NCBI GenBank assembly: GCA_005885165.1
Contig: VAXR01000025.1
Span: 1-38,293 of the forward strand
DNA length: 38,293 bases
DNA from: Actinomycetota bacterium
Lineage (GTDB): Bacteria > Actinomycetota > Thermoleophilia > Solirubrobacterales > Thermoleophilaceae
Reading direction: 5' to 3'
Below, piece by piece: positions 2,900 to 10,958 of this stretch (position 1 is the first letter of the stretch; every line of letters starts with the position of its first letter). The translations under genes and the position numbers were made by a program. A model generated the notes under the pieces. It searched no databases. It saw nothing but the letters and a program-made list of their open reading frames with translations, and had not been told where the DNA came from.

Positions 2900-4636
2900 A
2901 TGGAAGTCGTGATCGCACGCGACGACGCCCTCGCCGCCTTCGAGGCCGAGCAGTTCGACGTCGTGGTCGTGGGCGGCGGGATCACCGGCGCCGGGGTGGC
3001 GCTCGACGCCGCCTCGCGCGGCTACAGCGTCGCCCTCGTGGAGCGCGAGGACTACGCGTCAGGCACCTCGAGCCGCTCGTCGAAGCTCGTGCACGGCGGC
3101 CTCCGCTACCTCCAGAACTTCGACCTCGGCCTTGTCCGGGAGGCTCTGCTCGAGCGCGCCCTGCTCGTGAACCTCGCCCCGCACCTGGTGCGGCCGCTCG
3201 AGCTCCTCATACCCGCCTTCGAGGGCAACCGCCCCGACCGCTTGACGGGCGTGGGGCTGAACATGTACGACGTGATGGCCACCGAGCGCGTGCGGCTGCC
3301 GAGCCTGCGGCGCCGCGGCGACGCGCCCGCGCTCGAGGAGTGGAGCCCCGACCGCCACCACGTGATCGAGGGCGAGGAGGTCAAGCGCCTCCTGCCCGCG
3401 CTCGCCTCGCGCGAGCCGACGTCCGCCTATCTCTTCTACGACTGCCAGACCGACGACGCCCGCCTCGTGCTGACCGTCCTCGGCGAGGCCGAGCGGTTCG
3501 GCACGGTGATGGCGAACCGCTGCGAGGTGGTCGGCCTGGTGCAGGACGGCGCGCGCGCGGCTGGCGTGCGCTGCGTGGACCGCGTGTCCGGCGGCAGCTT
3601 CCAGGTTCGGGCGTCGAACGTCGTGAACGCGACCGGCGTATGGGCGGACCGGATCAGCTCCGAGGAGATCTACGCGGAGGAGGAGATGCCGCGGATCCGA
3701 CCCAGCCGGGGGACGCACGTGACGCTCCCGTACGAGGCGCTGCCGCTGGTTGCGGGCGCGATCGTGCCCGTCGGGGACAAGCGGACGATCTTCACGCTCC
3801 CGTGGCTCGGCCGGACGCTGGTCGGGACCACCGACTACGACTACGAGGGGGAGCTCGAGCACGTCCCGCCGTCGTCCGACGACATCGACTACCTGCTCGA
3901 CGCCTGCAACCGCTTCTTCGACCTGTCGCTCGATCGCTCCGACCTGGCCGGTGCCTACGCGGGCGTGCGTCCGCTCATCTCCACCGGGGACACGAAGAAG
4001 TCGGTGGACATCTCGCGCCGGGCCGAGCTGTTCGAGACGAGCTCCGGGCTCGTGACGATCACCGGCGGCAAGCTCACCACCTGGCGGCGGATGGCCAAGC
4101 TCGCCGTGGACCGGATCGTGGAGCGGGAGGGGCGCGAGGCCCCGTGCCGCACGCACGAGATCCCGCTCGGCCAGCCCGCCGAGCCCGAGGACCTGGCTGG
4201 CGCCGCCGGGGTCGACGACGAGTCGCTCGACCTGCTCGCCCACCGCTACGGGTTCGCGGCGCGCGACGTCCTGGCCTCGGTCGAGGCCGATCCGGAGCTC
4301 GCCCCGCGGATCGTGCCGGATCTGCCCGACCTCCTCGCGGAGGCCGCCTTCGCCGTCACGCACGAGCAGGCCACGACGCTCGCCGATGTGCTGCTTCGCC
4401 GCACGCGGCTCGGCATCCTCGACGCTCCTCGGCTGGTCGCCGACGGCAGCGCGGAGGCGCGCGCCGCGGCCGAGGCGATGGGGCGGGTGCTCGGGTGGGA
4501 CGGCGCGCGCGTGGCGCGCGAGCTCGACGACTGGAGGGAAGTGGCCCGTGCCGAGGGCCTGCTGGGTGAAGCACCCGGCTCGGCGTCCCCCGCGGACGAG
4601 CGGGAGCCGAGAAGCGCCACCGCAGCGGGCGCGTGA
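2900..4636 (+). CDS. glpD: FAD-dependent glycerol-3-phosphate dehydrogenase
   Basis: FDVVVVGGGITGAGVALDAASRGYSVALVEREDYASGTSSRSSKLVHGGLRYLQ is the GlpD/GlpA signature; C-terminal domain present. Confidence 0.93.
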   Translation: MEVVIARDDALAAFEAEQFDVVVVGGGITGAGVALDAASRGYSVALVEREDYASGTSSRSSKLVHGGLRYLQNFDLGLVREALLERALLVNLAPHLVRPLELLIPAFEGNRPDRLTGVGLNMYDVMATERVRLPSLRRRGDAPALEEWSPDRHHVIEGEEVKRLLPALASREPTSAYLFYDCQTDDARLVLTVLGEAERFGTVMANRCEVVGLVQDGARAAGVRCVDRVSGGSFQVRASNVVNATGVWADRISSEEIYAEEEMPRIRPSRGTHVTLPYEALPLVAGAIVPVGDKRTIFTLPWLGRTLVGTTDYDYEGELEHVPPSSDDIDYLLDACNRFFDLSLDRSDLAGAYAGVRPLISTGDTKKSVDISRRAELFETSSGLVTITGGKLTTWRRMAKLAVDRIVEREGREAPCRTHEIPLGQPAEPEDLAGAAGVDDESLDLLAHRYGFAARDVLASVEADPELAPRIVPDLPDLLAEAAFAVTHEQATTLADVLLRRTRLGILDAPRLVADGSAEARAAAEAMGRVLGWDGARVARELDDWREVARAEGLLGEAPGSASPADEREPRSATAAGA

Positions 4637-5532
4637 GCCGGTCCGAGCTCACCCCGCCGCTGTTCCTGCGCGGCCGCGAGCTGCGGCCGACGCCCGCGCG
4701 CCCGCTCGTGATGGGCATAGTGAACGCGAGCCCCGAGTCGTTCTTCGACGGCCACGAGGTCGGCTCGGCCGAGGATCAGATCGCGCGCGCCCTCGCGATG
4801 CACGACGACGGCGCGGACCTGATCGACGTCGGGGGAGAGTCAGGCGTCACAGACCTGCCGGCGGTGACCGCGCAGGAGGAGCTCGAGCGCGTCCTGCCTA
4901 TCGTAGAGCGGCTCGCCGCGGAGGACGCGATCGTCTCCATCGACACGTGGAAGCCGGAGGTCGCACGTGGCGCGCTCGAGGCCGGCGCGGCGATGGTGAA
5001 CGACGTGAGCGGCCTCGCCGATCCCGGGGTGGCGGAGGCCTGCGCCGAGACGGGCGCCGGGCTGATCCTCACGCACACGCGAGCGGCGCCGAAGCAGAAG
5101 TCCTTCCCGAGCTACCCGGACGTGGTCGAGGACGTGGTCGAGCGGCTCCGCGAGCGGATGGAGGCCGCGCGCGCACTCGGCATGCACGCCGAGCAGCTGG
5201 TGCTCGACCCCGGCCCCGACTTGGCGAAGACGCCGGCGGACACGATCACGGTGCTTCGTGCGCTGCCGCGGCTGGCCGGCCTGGGCCGGCCCGTGCTCCT
5301 CGCCGCCTCGCGTAAGGACTTCGTAGGCGCGTTGACGGGCCGCAGCCCGCGCGACCGGCTGGCGGGAACGCTGGCCGCCATCGGCGTGGGGCTCGATCTC
5401 GGCGCATCGATCCTCCGCGTCCACGACGTGCCGGCCACGCTCGACTACCTCGCTGTCCGCGCGGCGCTGCGCGGCGAGCGCGACGTCGACCCCGACCTTC
5501 GCCTGGATCCGGGCTTGCGCCGGGTGGTGTGA
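4633..5532 (+). CDS. folP: Dihydropteroate synthase
   Basis: PLVMGIVNASPESFFDG...GADLIDVGGESG and SIDTWKPEVA...MVNDVSGL; 4-bp overlap with glpD. Confidence 0.9.
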   Translation: MSRSELTPPLFLRGRELRPTPARPLVMGIVNASPESFFDGHEVGSAEDQIARALAMHDDGADLIDVGGESGVTDLPAVTAQEELERVLPIVERLAAEDAIVSIDTWKPEVARGALEAGAAMVNDVSGLADPGVAEACAETGAGLILTHTRAAPKQKSFPSYPDVVEDVVERLRERMEAARALGMHAEQLVLDPGPDLAKTPADTITVLRALPRLAGLGRPVLLAASRKDFVGALTGRSPRDRLAGTLAAIGVGLDLGASILRVHDVPATLDYLAVRAALRGERDVDPDLRLDPGLRRVV

Positions 5533-5571: not shown

Positions 5572-6702
5572 ATGCCCATCCTGGACAGGCAGCAGCTAGA
5601 GGAGAGCCCGCTCGCCGATCTCCACGCGATCGCGTCGGAGCTCGGGATCGAGGGGTTTCGCCGCCTCCGGCGGGAGGAGCTGATCGAGACGCTCCTCGCG
5701 GCCGAGGGTGGCGAGGGGGCGTCGGGCGAGGGTGAAGCCAAGGCTGAGGCCGCGGTGGAGGAAGCCGACGAGGAGGCCGAGGCCGAGGAAGCCCAGGCCG
5801 AGGAGGAGGCCGAGCCCGCCAGGGGCGGGGAGGAGGAGCCCGCGCCCGAACCGGAGCCCGAGGAGGAAGAGGAGGACGTGCGCTCCGGCGTGCTCGACGT
5901 CCTGCCGAACGGCAGCGGGTTCATGCGGCCGGACCCGTTCGCGCACTCGCGCGACGACGTCTACGTGTCGCCGGCCCAGGTCCGCCGCTGCGAGCTGCGC
6001 CCCGGAGACGTGCTCGCCGGGCCGGTCCGATCCCCGCGCCGGTCCGAGCGCTACCCGTCGCTCGTACACGTCGAGACGATCAACGGCGAGCCGGCCGATC
6101 CGCCGCCCGAGCGCCCGCACTTCGACGATCTCACGCCCGTCTTCGCCAGCGAGCGGCTGACCGCGCCGGACGGCCTCGACGCGGTGCCGTTCGGAAGGGG
6201 CTCGCGGGTTGCCGTCGGGGGGCCGCCCGGCTCCGGCACGACCACTCTCCTGCGGCGGATCGCGCTCACGCTGGTCCGCTCCCATCCCGACCTCGAGCTG
6301 ACTGTGGTGCTCGCCGGCGTGCGCCCGGAGGAGGTCACGGAGTGGAAGGCCGAGTCCGAGCTGGCCGTGGCCGGGGGAGGATTCGACCGCTCGGTCGAGG
6401 AGCAGACGCAGGTAGCCGAGATCGCGTTCGAGCGCGCGAAGCGCGTGGCCGAGCGCGGCGGTCACGCGGCGATCGTCCTCGACTCGCTCGATGCCCTGCA
6501 TCCGGCCGCCGCGCGGCGGCTCTTCGGTGCGGCGCGCGCACTCGAGGAGGGCGGCTCGCTGACGGTGATCGCCTCGACGGGCCTCGCCGGGGAGCCGCAG
6601 CGGCTTGCCACGACGCGCATCGTGCTCGAGGGCACCGCGCAGGACGGCACGGCGACGCTCGCACCCGCGTCCGGCACGCTCCGCGCCGAGCGCCTGACCT
6701 AG
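5572..6702 (+). CDS. Rho-family transcription termination factor paralog, degenerate ATPase
   Basis: N-terminal Rho_N-like helix (LADLHAIASELGIEGFRRLRREELIETLLAAEG), acidic linker, Rho RNA-binding-like segment (GVLDVLPNGSGFMRPDPFAHSRDDVYVSPAQVRRCELRPGDVLAGPVR), RPEEVTEW, FGAARALEEGGSLTVIAST; P-loop reads GGPPGSGTTTLL. Confidence 0.85.
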   Translation: MPILDRQQLEESPLADLHAIASELGIEGFRRLRREELIETLLAAEGGEGASGEGEAKAEAAVEEADEEAEAEEAQAEEEAEPARGGEEEPAPEPEPEEEEEDVRSGVLDVLPNGSGFMRPDPFAHSRDDVYVSPAQVRRCELRPGDVLAGPVRSPRRSERYPSLVHVETINGEPADPPPERPHFDDLTPVFASERLTAPDGLDAVPFGRGSRVAVGGPPGSGTTTLLRRIALTLVRSHPDLELTVVLAGVRPEEVTEWKAESELAVAGGGFDRSVEEQTQVAEIAFERAKRVAERGGHAAIVLDSLDALHPAAARRLFGAARALEEGGSLTVIASTGLAGEPQRLATTRIVLEGTAQDGTATLAPASGTLRAERLT

Positions 6703-6724: not shown

Positions 6725-7183
6725 TCAGCGCCGGTAGGCGACCTGCGCCCAGGAGGGCTCGGGCGAGAGCTCGATCACCTCGTTGTCGCGATCGGGCTGG
6801 GCGTAGCCGAAGCCGTTCGAGCTCTCGTCGAAGACGATCTCGAGCTCGCCCTCCTTCACGCGCTGGTCGAGCCAGGCGCCGCGGAAGACGAGCCGGCGCA
6901 GCCAGTGGACGAGCGAACGGTCGGCCGTCGCGTTGAGCTCGGGCCAGCACGCGTTGATGTGCTCGCCGAGGGCGGACGCCGGTTCGGTCACCTCCCCATT
7001 CACCGTGAGGTTCACGAGGTCCTCGCGCTCGGCTCCCTCGAGCGGCCCGGGGACGAATCCGAGCTTCACCGCCGCCTGCTCGACGCGCTCGGTGAAATCG
7101 CGCTCGTTGAACGTGAAGCGGAGCTCGCCGTACTCGAGGACATAGTCCGCTCCGGACTCGTAATTTCGGCGAGTGGCGTCCAT
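6725..7183 (-). CDS. Conserved hypothetical protein
   Basis: 152 aa ORF with balanced composition, ATG start preceded by GGAG. Confidence 0.65.
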   Translation of the reverse strand: MDATRRNYESGADYVLEYGELRFTFNERDFTERVEQAAVKLGFVPGPLEGAEREDLVNLTVNGEVTEPASALGEHINACWPELNATADRSLVHWLRRLVFRGAWLDQRVKEGELEIVFDESSNGFGYAQPDRDNEVIELSPEPSWAQVAYRR

Positions 7184-8058: not shown

Positions 8059-8628
8059 TCAAGCGGCGAGCTCGCCCGCGCGCACCCGCAACCTGGCGCG
8101 TACGCGGTGCAGGCGCACCTTCACCGTCCCCTCCGGCACCCCCATGACCTCGGCGACCTGACCCTGCGTCAGGTCGTGTACGTAACGCAGCCGGATGAGC
8201 CGCCGCTCGTCCGGGGCTAGCGCGTCCAACGCCTGCTCGGTGGCGACGGCAGTGAGCGTCTGCTCGATCTGGCTCTCGACGGCGGGCTCCCAGGCTGCCC
8301 CCTCGCGCTCGGGCTGAGGGACCTCGGCCAGCTCGCGCCTGCGCCGGCGCGCCGCAAGGCGCATCGACTCGTTGCGCGTGATCTGAAGAAGCCAGGGGAG
8401 CGGCGCAGACGGAGTACGGCACGCCGCGCGCTTGCGCCAGGCCCGCGCCATCGCCTCCTGGACGGCCTCCTCGGCGTCGTCGCGGTTGCGCAGGATCCGG
8501 CGCGCCTCTCTGAGGCATCGCTGACGTGCCGCCGCCCACTGCCAGGGCGGATGCTCATCGGCTCCGCGCATCAGCACGCGGACGCAGGACATCGGCGGAA
8601 GATAACTCGCTGAAACTACCTCTACCAC
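8059..8628 (-). CDS. Sigma-70 family (ECF-type) RNA polymerase sigma factor
   Basis: Region 2 (RDDAEEAVQEAMARAWRKR...PWLLQITRNESMRLAARRRR) and region 4 (LAPDERRLIRLRYVHDLTQGQVAEVMGVPEGTVKVRLHRVRARLR). Confidence 0.88.
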   Translation of the reverse strand: MVEVVSASYLPPMSCVRVLMRGADEHPPWQWAAARQRCLREARRILRNRDDAEEAVQEAMARAWRKRAACRTPSAPLPWLLQITRNESMRLAARRRRRELAEVPQPEREGAAWEPAVESQIEQTLTAVATEQALDALAPDERRLIRLRYVHDLTQGQVAEVMGVPEGTVKVRLHRVRARLRVRAGELAA

Positions 8629-9570: not shown

Positions 9571-10281
9571 ATGGACCCGCGGCCGGAATCGCTCCTTCTC
9601 GTCGAGGACGACGAGGCCACACGGACCTTCCTGGCCGACAACCTGGCGGCCGACGGCTTCCAGGTTGCGAGCGCGACTGCGCCCGACGAGGCGATTCGCG
9701 CGATCGAGGTTCGGCAGCCGGACCTCGTCGTCCTCGACCTCATCCTCGAGGGCGGGAGCGGCCTCGGGGTGCTCGACCGCGTGCGCGCCGCGGAGCCCGG
9801 CGCCACCCGGATCGACCCCGACCTGCCGATCGTCGTGCTGAGCGCGCGCGCCTCCGAGGTCGACCGGCTCCGCGGATTCGCGCGGGGCGCGGACGACTAC
9901 GTCGTAAAGCCTTTCAGCTACGCCGAGCTCGTGGCCAGGGTCCGGTCGGTGCTCCGGCGGTCGTCGGCGCGCCCGCTGCGCGGGCTCGTGCGGGTGGGTG
10001 AGCTGACGATCGATCCCGTCACGCGAGCCGTGCGCCTCGGCGGGCGCTCCGTCCACCTCTCGGCGAAGGAGTTCGCGCTTCTCAGCGCCCTCGCCGCCGA
10101 GCCCGCCCGCGTCTTCACCAAGGCCGAGCTGCTGCGCGACGTCTGGGGATACGCGTCGGTCGGCGCCACGCGCACGATCGACGCGCACGCCTGCCGCCTG
10201 CGGCGGAAGCTGGGCGGCGCCGGCCGGCCGCTCGTGCTGAACGTACGCGGCGTCGGCTACCGACTTGCGGAGCCCGCGTGA
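9571..10281 (+). CDS. OmpR/PhoB-type response regulator
   Basis: Receiver (LLLVEDDEATRTFLADNL...DLVVLDLILEGGSG...YVVKPFSYAELVARVRSVLRR) plus winged-helix (LSAKEFALLSALAAEPARVFTKAELLRDVWG...TIDAHACRLRRKLG). Confidence 0.93.
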   Translation: MDPRPESLLLVEDDEATRTFLADNLAADGFQVASATAPDEAIRAIEVRQPDLVVLDLILEGGSGLGVLDRVRAAEPGATRIDPDLPIVVLSARASEVDRLRGFARGADDYVVKPFSYAELVARVRSVLRRSSARPLRGLVRVGELTIDPVTRAVRLGGRSVHLSAKEFALLSALAAEPARVFTKAELLRDVWGYASVGATRTIDAHACRLRRKLGGAGRPLVLNVRGVGYRLAEPA

Positions 10282-10958
10282 CGGCGAGCTTCGCGATCGC
10301 GGGGTGGATCGCGGCCGCCGTGCTCGCGCTTAGGGCCCGCGCGCTTGCGGGGCGGCTGCGCGCCGTCGGCGACGCCGAGCACGAGCTGCGCGGGCCGCTT
10401 GCGGCGGTGGCGCTCGCCGTGGAGAGCGCACGCCGCCGGCCGGCGCTCCGCGGGCTGGCCGACTCGCTCGAGAGCGAGCTCGTCCGGGCCCGCGCGGGCC
10501 TAGCCGATCTCACCGCGGCGCGGTCGGGGAGGCCGGGATCCGCCGTCGCGGCGCGTCCCGAGCTCGAGCCCGCGGGGTTCGAGCGCCTGGTTCGCTCCGC
10601 CGCCCAGGCCTGGGGACGAACACGGCGGGTCAGCGTCGATTGGCGGGCCGGCTCGGTTCCGCTCCGGCGGGACGCCGGCGCCCTGGCGAAGGCCCTCGGC
10701 AACGTCCTCTCGAACGCCGCCGAGCACGGCGCCGGGCCGATCGAGCTGCGCGCGAGCCGCCGGTCGGGGGACGTTCTGATCGAGGTCACGAATCCGGTCT
10801 CGCCGGCCGCCCGGAAATCGGTCCGGGGCCTCAGGCGAGAGCGCGGGCGCGGCCTCGGCATCGCCCGGCGGTCCGCGGCGGCGCTGGGGGGCGAGCTCGA
10901 GTTCGAGGCCGAGCGGGCGCGGGTGCGCACCGCACTCGTCGTGCCAGTCGACGGATGA
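10278..10958 (+). CDS. Compact sensor histidine kinase
   Basis: One N-terminal TM then H-box DAEHELRGPLAAVALAVE, N-box NVLSNAAEHGAG, G2 RGRGLGIARRSAAALGGELEFE; 4-bp overlap with the response regulator. Confidence 0.82.
   Translation: MTASFAIAGWIAAAVLALRARALAGRLRAVGDAEHELRGPLAAVALAVESARRRPALRGLADSLESELVRARAGLADLTAARSGRPGSAVAARPELEPAGFERLVRSAAQAWGRTRRVSVDWRAGSVPLRRDAGALAKALGNVLSNAAEHGAGPIELRASRRSGDVLIEVTNPVSPAARKSVRGLRRERGRGLGIARRSAAALGGELEFEAERARVRTALVVPVDG

Follow-up and report, generated by a model that had tools for sequence, protein, structure and literature searches.

A bacterium is commonly assumed either to have an active transcription termination factor Rho or to have none. The locus described here points to a third state, in which Rho is kept without its motor across an entire order of soil actinobacteria, the Solirubrobacterales. 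The locus lies in a stretch of 38,293 nt, referred to as the window, from contig VAXR01000025.1 (assembly GCA_005885165.1) of a member of the Thermoleophilaceae in this order, and it encodes a protein, here called pseudo-Rho, that was originally predicted from the DNA alone to be a Rho paralog with its ATPase and translocation elements removed. We find that pseudo-Rho is not a paralog; rather, it is the vertical, single-copy descendant of rho at the ancestral rho locus. We suggest that it is likely a pseudo-enzyme, i.e. an RNA-binding, non-translocating Rho scaffold, with motor-driven Rho termination being absent from the order.

The Rho-like order of domains proposed for the open reading frame (ORF) was borne out. 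Pfam recognizes Rho_N and Rho_RNA_bind, a RecA-like domain follows, and the AlphaFold2 model, with a mean predicted local distance difference test (pLDDT) score of 89.5, has the Rho fold (Table 1). Confidence in the model is high over the RNA-binding oligonucleotide/oligosaccharide-binding (OB) domain and the RecA-like domain (pLDDT ~97) and low over the acidic linker (residues ~47-90). Rho makes up all 50 matches listed in a Foldseek search with this model (e.g. 6xav_A, 2.7 Å over 312 columns), and Rho structures were the sole matches at E 0.01 in a sequence search of the PDB, the best having an E-value of ~1e-44. Against the NCBIfam rho equivalog TIGR00767, pseudo-Rho scores 212 bits, which is below the cut-off of 509, and the main alignment stops at model position 268. 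In terms of descent, the protein has the Rho_N and Rho_RNA_bind domains, the orthologous position, the single copy and the fold of a Rho.

What is missing is evident from an alignment to E. coli Rho, the numbering of which is used below for all residues but Thr223, Val250, Asp304 and Leu370, which are numbered as in pseudo-Rho. The roles of K181, T185, R212, E211, D265 and R366 are taken from PMC11718236, and those of Walker A and B, K184, the catalytic Glu, the arginine valve, the arginine finger and the Q- and R-loops from PMC8828861; catalytic and translocation roles of Rho residues are also described in PMC4499133, in which the E211A substitution inactivates E. coli Rho. In bacteria at large, conservation of most of these catalytic and loop residues has been described (PMC4499133, >1,200 species; PMC8828861). 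In pseudo-Rho, the alignment confirmed the replacement of the Walker A lysine K184 by Thr that had been noted before, and it added two further losses, i.e. that of the catalytic E211 (Val250) and that of the arginine finger R366 (Leu370). The gap between Walker B and the RRLFGAAR motif, which had been put at about 20 aa and attributed to loss of the Q-loop, does reflect this loss, its size being refined to a 22-residue deletion. Similarly, the arginine-finger/C-terminal region had been described as missing; the C-terminal helices (E. coli residues 374-419, 46 residues) are indeed gone, but the finger region is partly present as SGTLRAERL, with a Leu at the position of the finger itself. Kept are the arginine valve R212, the RPEE motif and most primary-site residues of the OB domain (F64, R66, D78, Y80, R88, E108, R109 and Y110), F62 being replaced by Ser. 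With K184, E211, R366, the Q-loop, the R-loop and the C-terminal helices all lost, the sequence gives good support to the earlier claim that pseudo-Rho cannot be a canonical helicase or motor, and we infer that both ATPase and helicase activity are lost.

The same pattern extends over the order. We aligned 58 relatives from its four families, for which we use the arbitrary labels f1 (n=29), f2 (n=16), f3 (n=10) and f4 (n=3). The Q-loop and R366 are absent from 58/58, and this recurrence argues that the sequence in the window is not a product of chance. Other elements differ by family. K184 is found in 0/29 sequences of f1, 14/16 of f2, 0/10 of f3 (nine of which have Arg) and 0/3 of f4, and E211 in 0/29, 0/16, 9/10 and 0/3, respectively. 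Deletion of the R-loop and absence of the C-terminal helices characterize f1, f2 and f4; f3 has other sequence in place of the R-loop and keeps the helices. Nearly all members of f1 have lost K181, K184, E211 and R366 jointly. In the OB domain, F64, R66, D78, Y80, R88 and E108 are mostly kept in f1-f3 and lost in f4, and F62 is mostly Ser in f1 and f2. The combination of a common Q-loop deletion with later, family-specific losses suggests that the translocation loops were lost once, in the ancestor of the order, and that the ATPase centre then eroded separately in each family.

According to the original prediction, pseudo-Rho could be incorporated into the rings of a true Rho and thereby regulate it, and a Rho-like fold with lost catalytic residues is what would be expected of such a dominant-negative subunit. 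A canonical rho was therefore looked for elsewhere. The source genome, a metagenome-assembled genome (MAG) that is 85% complete, contains no other Rho; a second match appears, from its weak score and the matched range, to be an ATP-synthase-like ATPase. The rho cut-off was reached in 0/61 genomes of relatives searched. In a survey of 230 genomes of the class, all at least 90% complete except for the source genome, which was counted among them despite its lower completeness, canonical Rho above cut-off is present in 32/230, each of which belongs to f5, f10 or f11, i.e. to a family outside the order, and in 0/121 genomes of the order, including the single-contig genomes G005, G034, G047, G052, G191, G206 and G224 and others. 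An assembly gap as the cause of the missing rho was rejected because the closed genomes agree. Rho_RNA_bind is present in 109 of the 121 genomes, nearly always in one copy; nine of the other 12 carry a shorter form, mini-Rho (see below), at the same locus where checked, and three (G187, G193 and G221) have neither pseudo-Rho nor mini-Rho. Two drafts of the order contain canonical-like Rho fragments (G016:C9, i.e. L034, a contig of 2130 bp, and G236:C757, 531 bp matched at a contig edge), which are probably contaminants. Elsewhere in the class, Rho_RNA_bind was found in 0/73 genomes of families f6-f9 (e.g. G093, G131 and G132; at least 90% complete), and these families form a sizeable group of actinobacteria that naturally lack Rho. 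Because no true Rho exists in the order, regulation through mixed rings is excluded in practice, and we consider the paralog reading extremely improbable. The lack of a full-length rho in the genome overturns this idea, yet it makes the finding more interesting.

Gene order identifies pseudo-Rho as rho itself. In canonical relatives in the class, genes for a metallophosphoesterase, a cyclic 2,3-diphosphoglycerate synthetase, a 2-phosphoglycerate kinase and sometimes a transaldolase are followed by rho (names of the flanking genes were judged from the sequences). This run, whole or in part, also adjoins the degenerate rho in f1 (G014, G018 and G016) and f4 (G036 and G039). Upstream of pseudo-Rho in the window and in most of f1-f3, glpD is found instead, together with folP in the window, where the glpD-folP-rho order described earlier was confirmed. 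In a protein tree, f1-f4 are set apart by a branch that has a support of 99 in the Shimodaira-Hasegawa-like approximate likelihood ratio test (SH-aLRT), and the Solirubrobacterales MAG sequence L128 falls inside f2. Because long branches make the attachment point of f1-f4 in this tree untrustworthy, the case for orthology depends chiefly on synteny and copy number. As a separate observation, rho is linked to the apparent cyclic-2,3-diphosphoglycerate synthetase and 2-phosphoglycerate kinase genes in the canonical class members L112-L115 and L125-L127.

Selection keeps pseudo-Rho, including the RecA-like domain that has been stripped of catalysis. Ratios of nonsynonymous to synonymous substitution rates (dN/dS; pairwise Nei-Gojobori), which are approximate because dS is high in several pairs, are 0.07-0.26 for the OB domain and 0.04-0.24 for the RecA-like domain, and ~0.4-1.3 for the linker in 6/7 pairs; canonical Rho pairs of the class gave 0.03-0.29 by the same method. 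ORFs are intact in the 109 order genomes. That the ORFs are intact and dN/dS is clearly below 1 speaks against a pseudogene, and neither broken frames nor neutral evolution was found, in agreement with the earlier argument against simple decay.

The most reduced form, mini-Rho (~230-295 aa), occurs in 9/9 searched genomes of genera g37 and g38 of f3; that these genera are Rho-less was rejected when mini-Rho was found at the locus. It adjoins the convergent 152-aa gene listed in Table 1 in 5/5 loci viewed, and glpD or a transaldolase gene where the contig extends. Mini-Rho consists of Rho_N (PF07498, E 1e-6), an arginine-rich linker that replaces the OB domain and a RecA-like core that lacks the P-loop and is modelled with a pLDDT of ~90; its RecA-like part has a dN/dS of 0.16-0.53. 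In mini-Rho, it may be this basic linker, instead of an OB domain, that binds RNA. In the phylum Actinomycetota, Rho above cut-off is present in 169 of the 199 genomes drawn; in f34 and in individual genomes of f56 and f60, the sole Rho match is sub-threshold and shows, by alignment only, substitutions or losses in Walker A, the loops or the finger (L309 and L311-L316). Partial loss of the motor seems to have occurred more than once in Actinomycetota.

We propose the following sequence of events. The Rho of the ancestor of the order would have lost the RNA-translocating loops and the arginine finger by deletion and substitution, and the ATPase centre would then have been eroded further, at different places in each family. 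The resulting protein would keep Rho_N, a RecA-like scaffold and an OB fold that could in principle bind pyrimidine-rich RNA, and it would be devoid of Rho-type ATP hydrolysis and of RNA pulling. From the retained domains, we infer that on nascent transcripts pseudo-Rho would serve as a scaffold that binds RNA without translocating, perhaps in concert with NusG and RNA polymerase; that it binds RNA in the cell, and what such a complex does there, are conjectures. More generally, a Rho that neither moves on RNA nor hydrolyses ATP might perform Rho's cellular tasks, or some newer function that arose from them, throughout the order. Part of Rho function would then be motor-independent, and Actinomycetota would have dispensed with the motor on more than one occasion; we regard this generalization as possible but rather doubtful.

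Three other accounts of the retained protein have to be weighed against a non-translocating scaffold. In one of these, pseudo-Rho would still terminate transcription, but without translocation, by riding RNA polymerase together with NusG and stalling or inactivating it on C-rich RNA. Rho_N and most OB primary-site residues are kept, as is the KOW surface of NusG (motif FGRETP in f1-f4; FERQVP in L301, L228, L229 and L300 of the Rho-less f6 and f7), and for M. tuberculosis Rho, a mechanism that does not need the motor had at one time been put forward (see PMC4499133). That proposal was contradicted by the finding that M. tuberculosis Rho requires a competent catalytic site (PMC4499133), and the C-terminal helices are missing from f1, f2 and f4. 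We consider termination of this kind unlikely. It is very improbable that pseudo-Rho is still active as an ATPase by means of a rearranged set of catalytic residues: the Walker B Asp, arginine valve R212 and RPEE motif are retained, as is the Walker A lysine in f2, but the joint losses in f1 are not accompanied by any conserved compensating residue at the lost catalytic positions, except for a basic residue one position past R366.

The remaining account sees in pseudo-Rho a remnant on its way out, with its function nearly gone and the gene eroding stepwise toward the loss seen in f6-f9. The class does contain a graded series from canonical Rho (f5, f10 and f11) through the motorless form (f1-f4) and mini-Rho (g37 and g38) to absence (f6-f9), and across the order pseudo-Rho diverges faster (35-77% identity) than its 152-aa neighbour (63-91%, mostly 63-80%). 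However, the ORFs are intact in nearly all genomes, the RecA-like domain is under constraint comparable to that of canonical Rho, and even the RecA-like part of mini-Rho is constrained. We consider erosion toward loss quite an unlikely explanation for the gene.

Several points weigh against the proposed scaffold, the support for which comes from sequences and models. Loss of rho weakens the purine bias of genes in Bacilli (PMC13323073); in the class, this bias is absent from canonical, degenerate and Rho-less members alike, so that it is uninformative here and shows no footprint of a lost Rho termination. Likewise, there is no excess of intrinsic terminators at convergent gene ends in degenerate or Rho-less genomes, in an underpowered comparison of 174 ends with mononucleotide shuffles only. 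The NusG KOW surface is not discriminating because it is unchanged in the Rho-less f9. In the OB primary site, F62 is Ser and Y110 is often His, and the loss of the OB domain from the mini-Rhos of g37 and g38 implies that RNA binding by the OB fold is not the whole of the retained function. Finally, with the Walker A lysine kept in 14 of the 16 f2 sequences, nucleotide binding may persist in f2.

How does pseudo-Rho compare with known systems? With Rho of E. coli and M. tuberculosis (TIGR00767), it shares an orthologous locus within the class, the order of Rho_N, OB and RecA-like domains, the Walker B Asp, the RPEE motif, the GGSLTxIA strand and the SGTxR motif; it differs in that the Walker A lysine, catalytic Glu, Q-loop, R-loop, arginine finger and C-terminal helices are gone. 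Like the Rho of mycobacteria, it comes from an actinobacterium and carries a low-complexity insert in its N-terminal part; this insert is long in mycobacteria and acidic in pseudo-Rho. M. tuberculosis Rho, however, has retained its catalytic residues and truly works as a motor (PMC4499133, PMC8828861). The NCBIfam family paralog_Rho2 ("Rho, short form"; NF041509) also comprises short Rho relatives; however, pseudo-Rho aligns to it only partially, with 158 bits, far under the cut-off of 628, and NF041509 is a family of paralogs while there is no second Rho here. The divergent Rho of f34, f56 and f60 resembles pseudo-Rho in being the sole Rho match in the genome and in its eroded Walker A and loop residues, but it is less degraded, with the loops largely present, and apparently arose independently. 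We found no description of a motorless Rho in Solirubrobacterales in the literature covered, which leaves out two surveys of Rho diversity and does not establish priority. The order would provide a natural separation of the RNA-binding and scaffold functions of Rho from its motor, and the graded series within one class can be used to ask how bacteria give up Rho termination. As this case shows, annotation of a gene as Rho is no proof of Rho-dependent termination, and we predict that bicyclomycin would lack a Rho target in bacteria of this order.

Table 1. Features of the pseudo-Rho locus and mini-Rho loci (positions refer to the window unless a locus is named; aa, amino acids)
Feature	Position	Strand	Evidence or remark
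glpD-type glycerol-3-phosphate dehydrogenase, upstream neighbour	2900..4636	+	PF01266, PF16901
folP (dihydropteroate synthase), upstream neighbour	4633..5532	+	PF00809, E 4e-62
pseudo-Rho	5572..6702	+	Open frame, 376 aa, TAG at 6700-6702; the genome's only Rho descendant, single copy
Rho_N helical domain, aa 8-44	5593..5703	+	Pfam PF07498, E 1.2e-10; pLDDT ~97
Acidic linker, aa 47-102, largely disordered, fast evolving	5710..5877	+	pLDDT <50 over aa 49-75; dN/dS 0.43-1.3 within the genus
OB/cold-shock RNA-binding domain (Rho_RNA_bind), aa 105-175	5884..6096	+	PF07497, E 6.4e-25
RecA-like domain, aa 205-336, fold retained, motor elements gone	6184..6579	+	AlphaFold2 pLDDT ~97; Foldseek to Rho
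Degenerate Walker A, GPPGSGTTT	6220..6246	+	Alignment; Thr223 at the K184 position (codon ACG, 6238-6240)
Val250 replacing catalytic Glu211	6319..6321	+	Alignment; AGVRPEEV vs E. coli IDERPEEV
Walker B Asp304 (E. coli D265), retained	6481..6483	+	Invariant in 43 sequences
Site of missing 22-residue Q-loop block (E. coli 276-297)	6505..6513	+	Alignment
Site of missing R-loop (E. coli 322-331)	6580..6591	+	Alignment; just 3' of SLTVIAST
Leu370 replacing arginine finger R366	6679..6681	+	Alignment; in residual SGTLRAERL (vs SGTRKEELL), 6 residues from the protein end
152-aa protein without Pfam family, convergent with pseudo-Rho	6725..7183	-	Recurs beside pseudo-Rho in many loci of the order
mini-Rho, locus L318	6210..7064	-
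mini-Rho, locus L319	5548..6243	-
mini-Rho, locus L320	4883..5767	+
mini-Rho, locus L321	6334..7158	-
mini-Rho, locus L317			Partial

Among the neighbouring genes, the convergent gene for the 152-aa protein was considered as a partner of pseudo-Rho and rejected, as it is found across most of the class, both with and without Rho. Further downstream, the window contains a gene for an ECF-type (extracytoplasmic function) sigma factor (8059-8628, - strand) and, at 9571-10958 (+ strand), genes for a response regulator and then a short histidine kinase, both of which recur close to pseudo-Rho in further families of the order.
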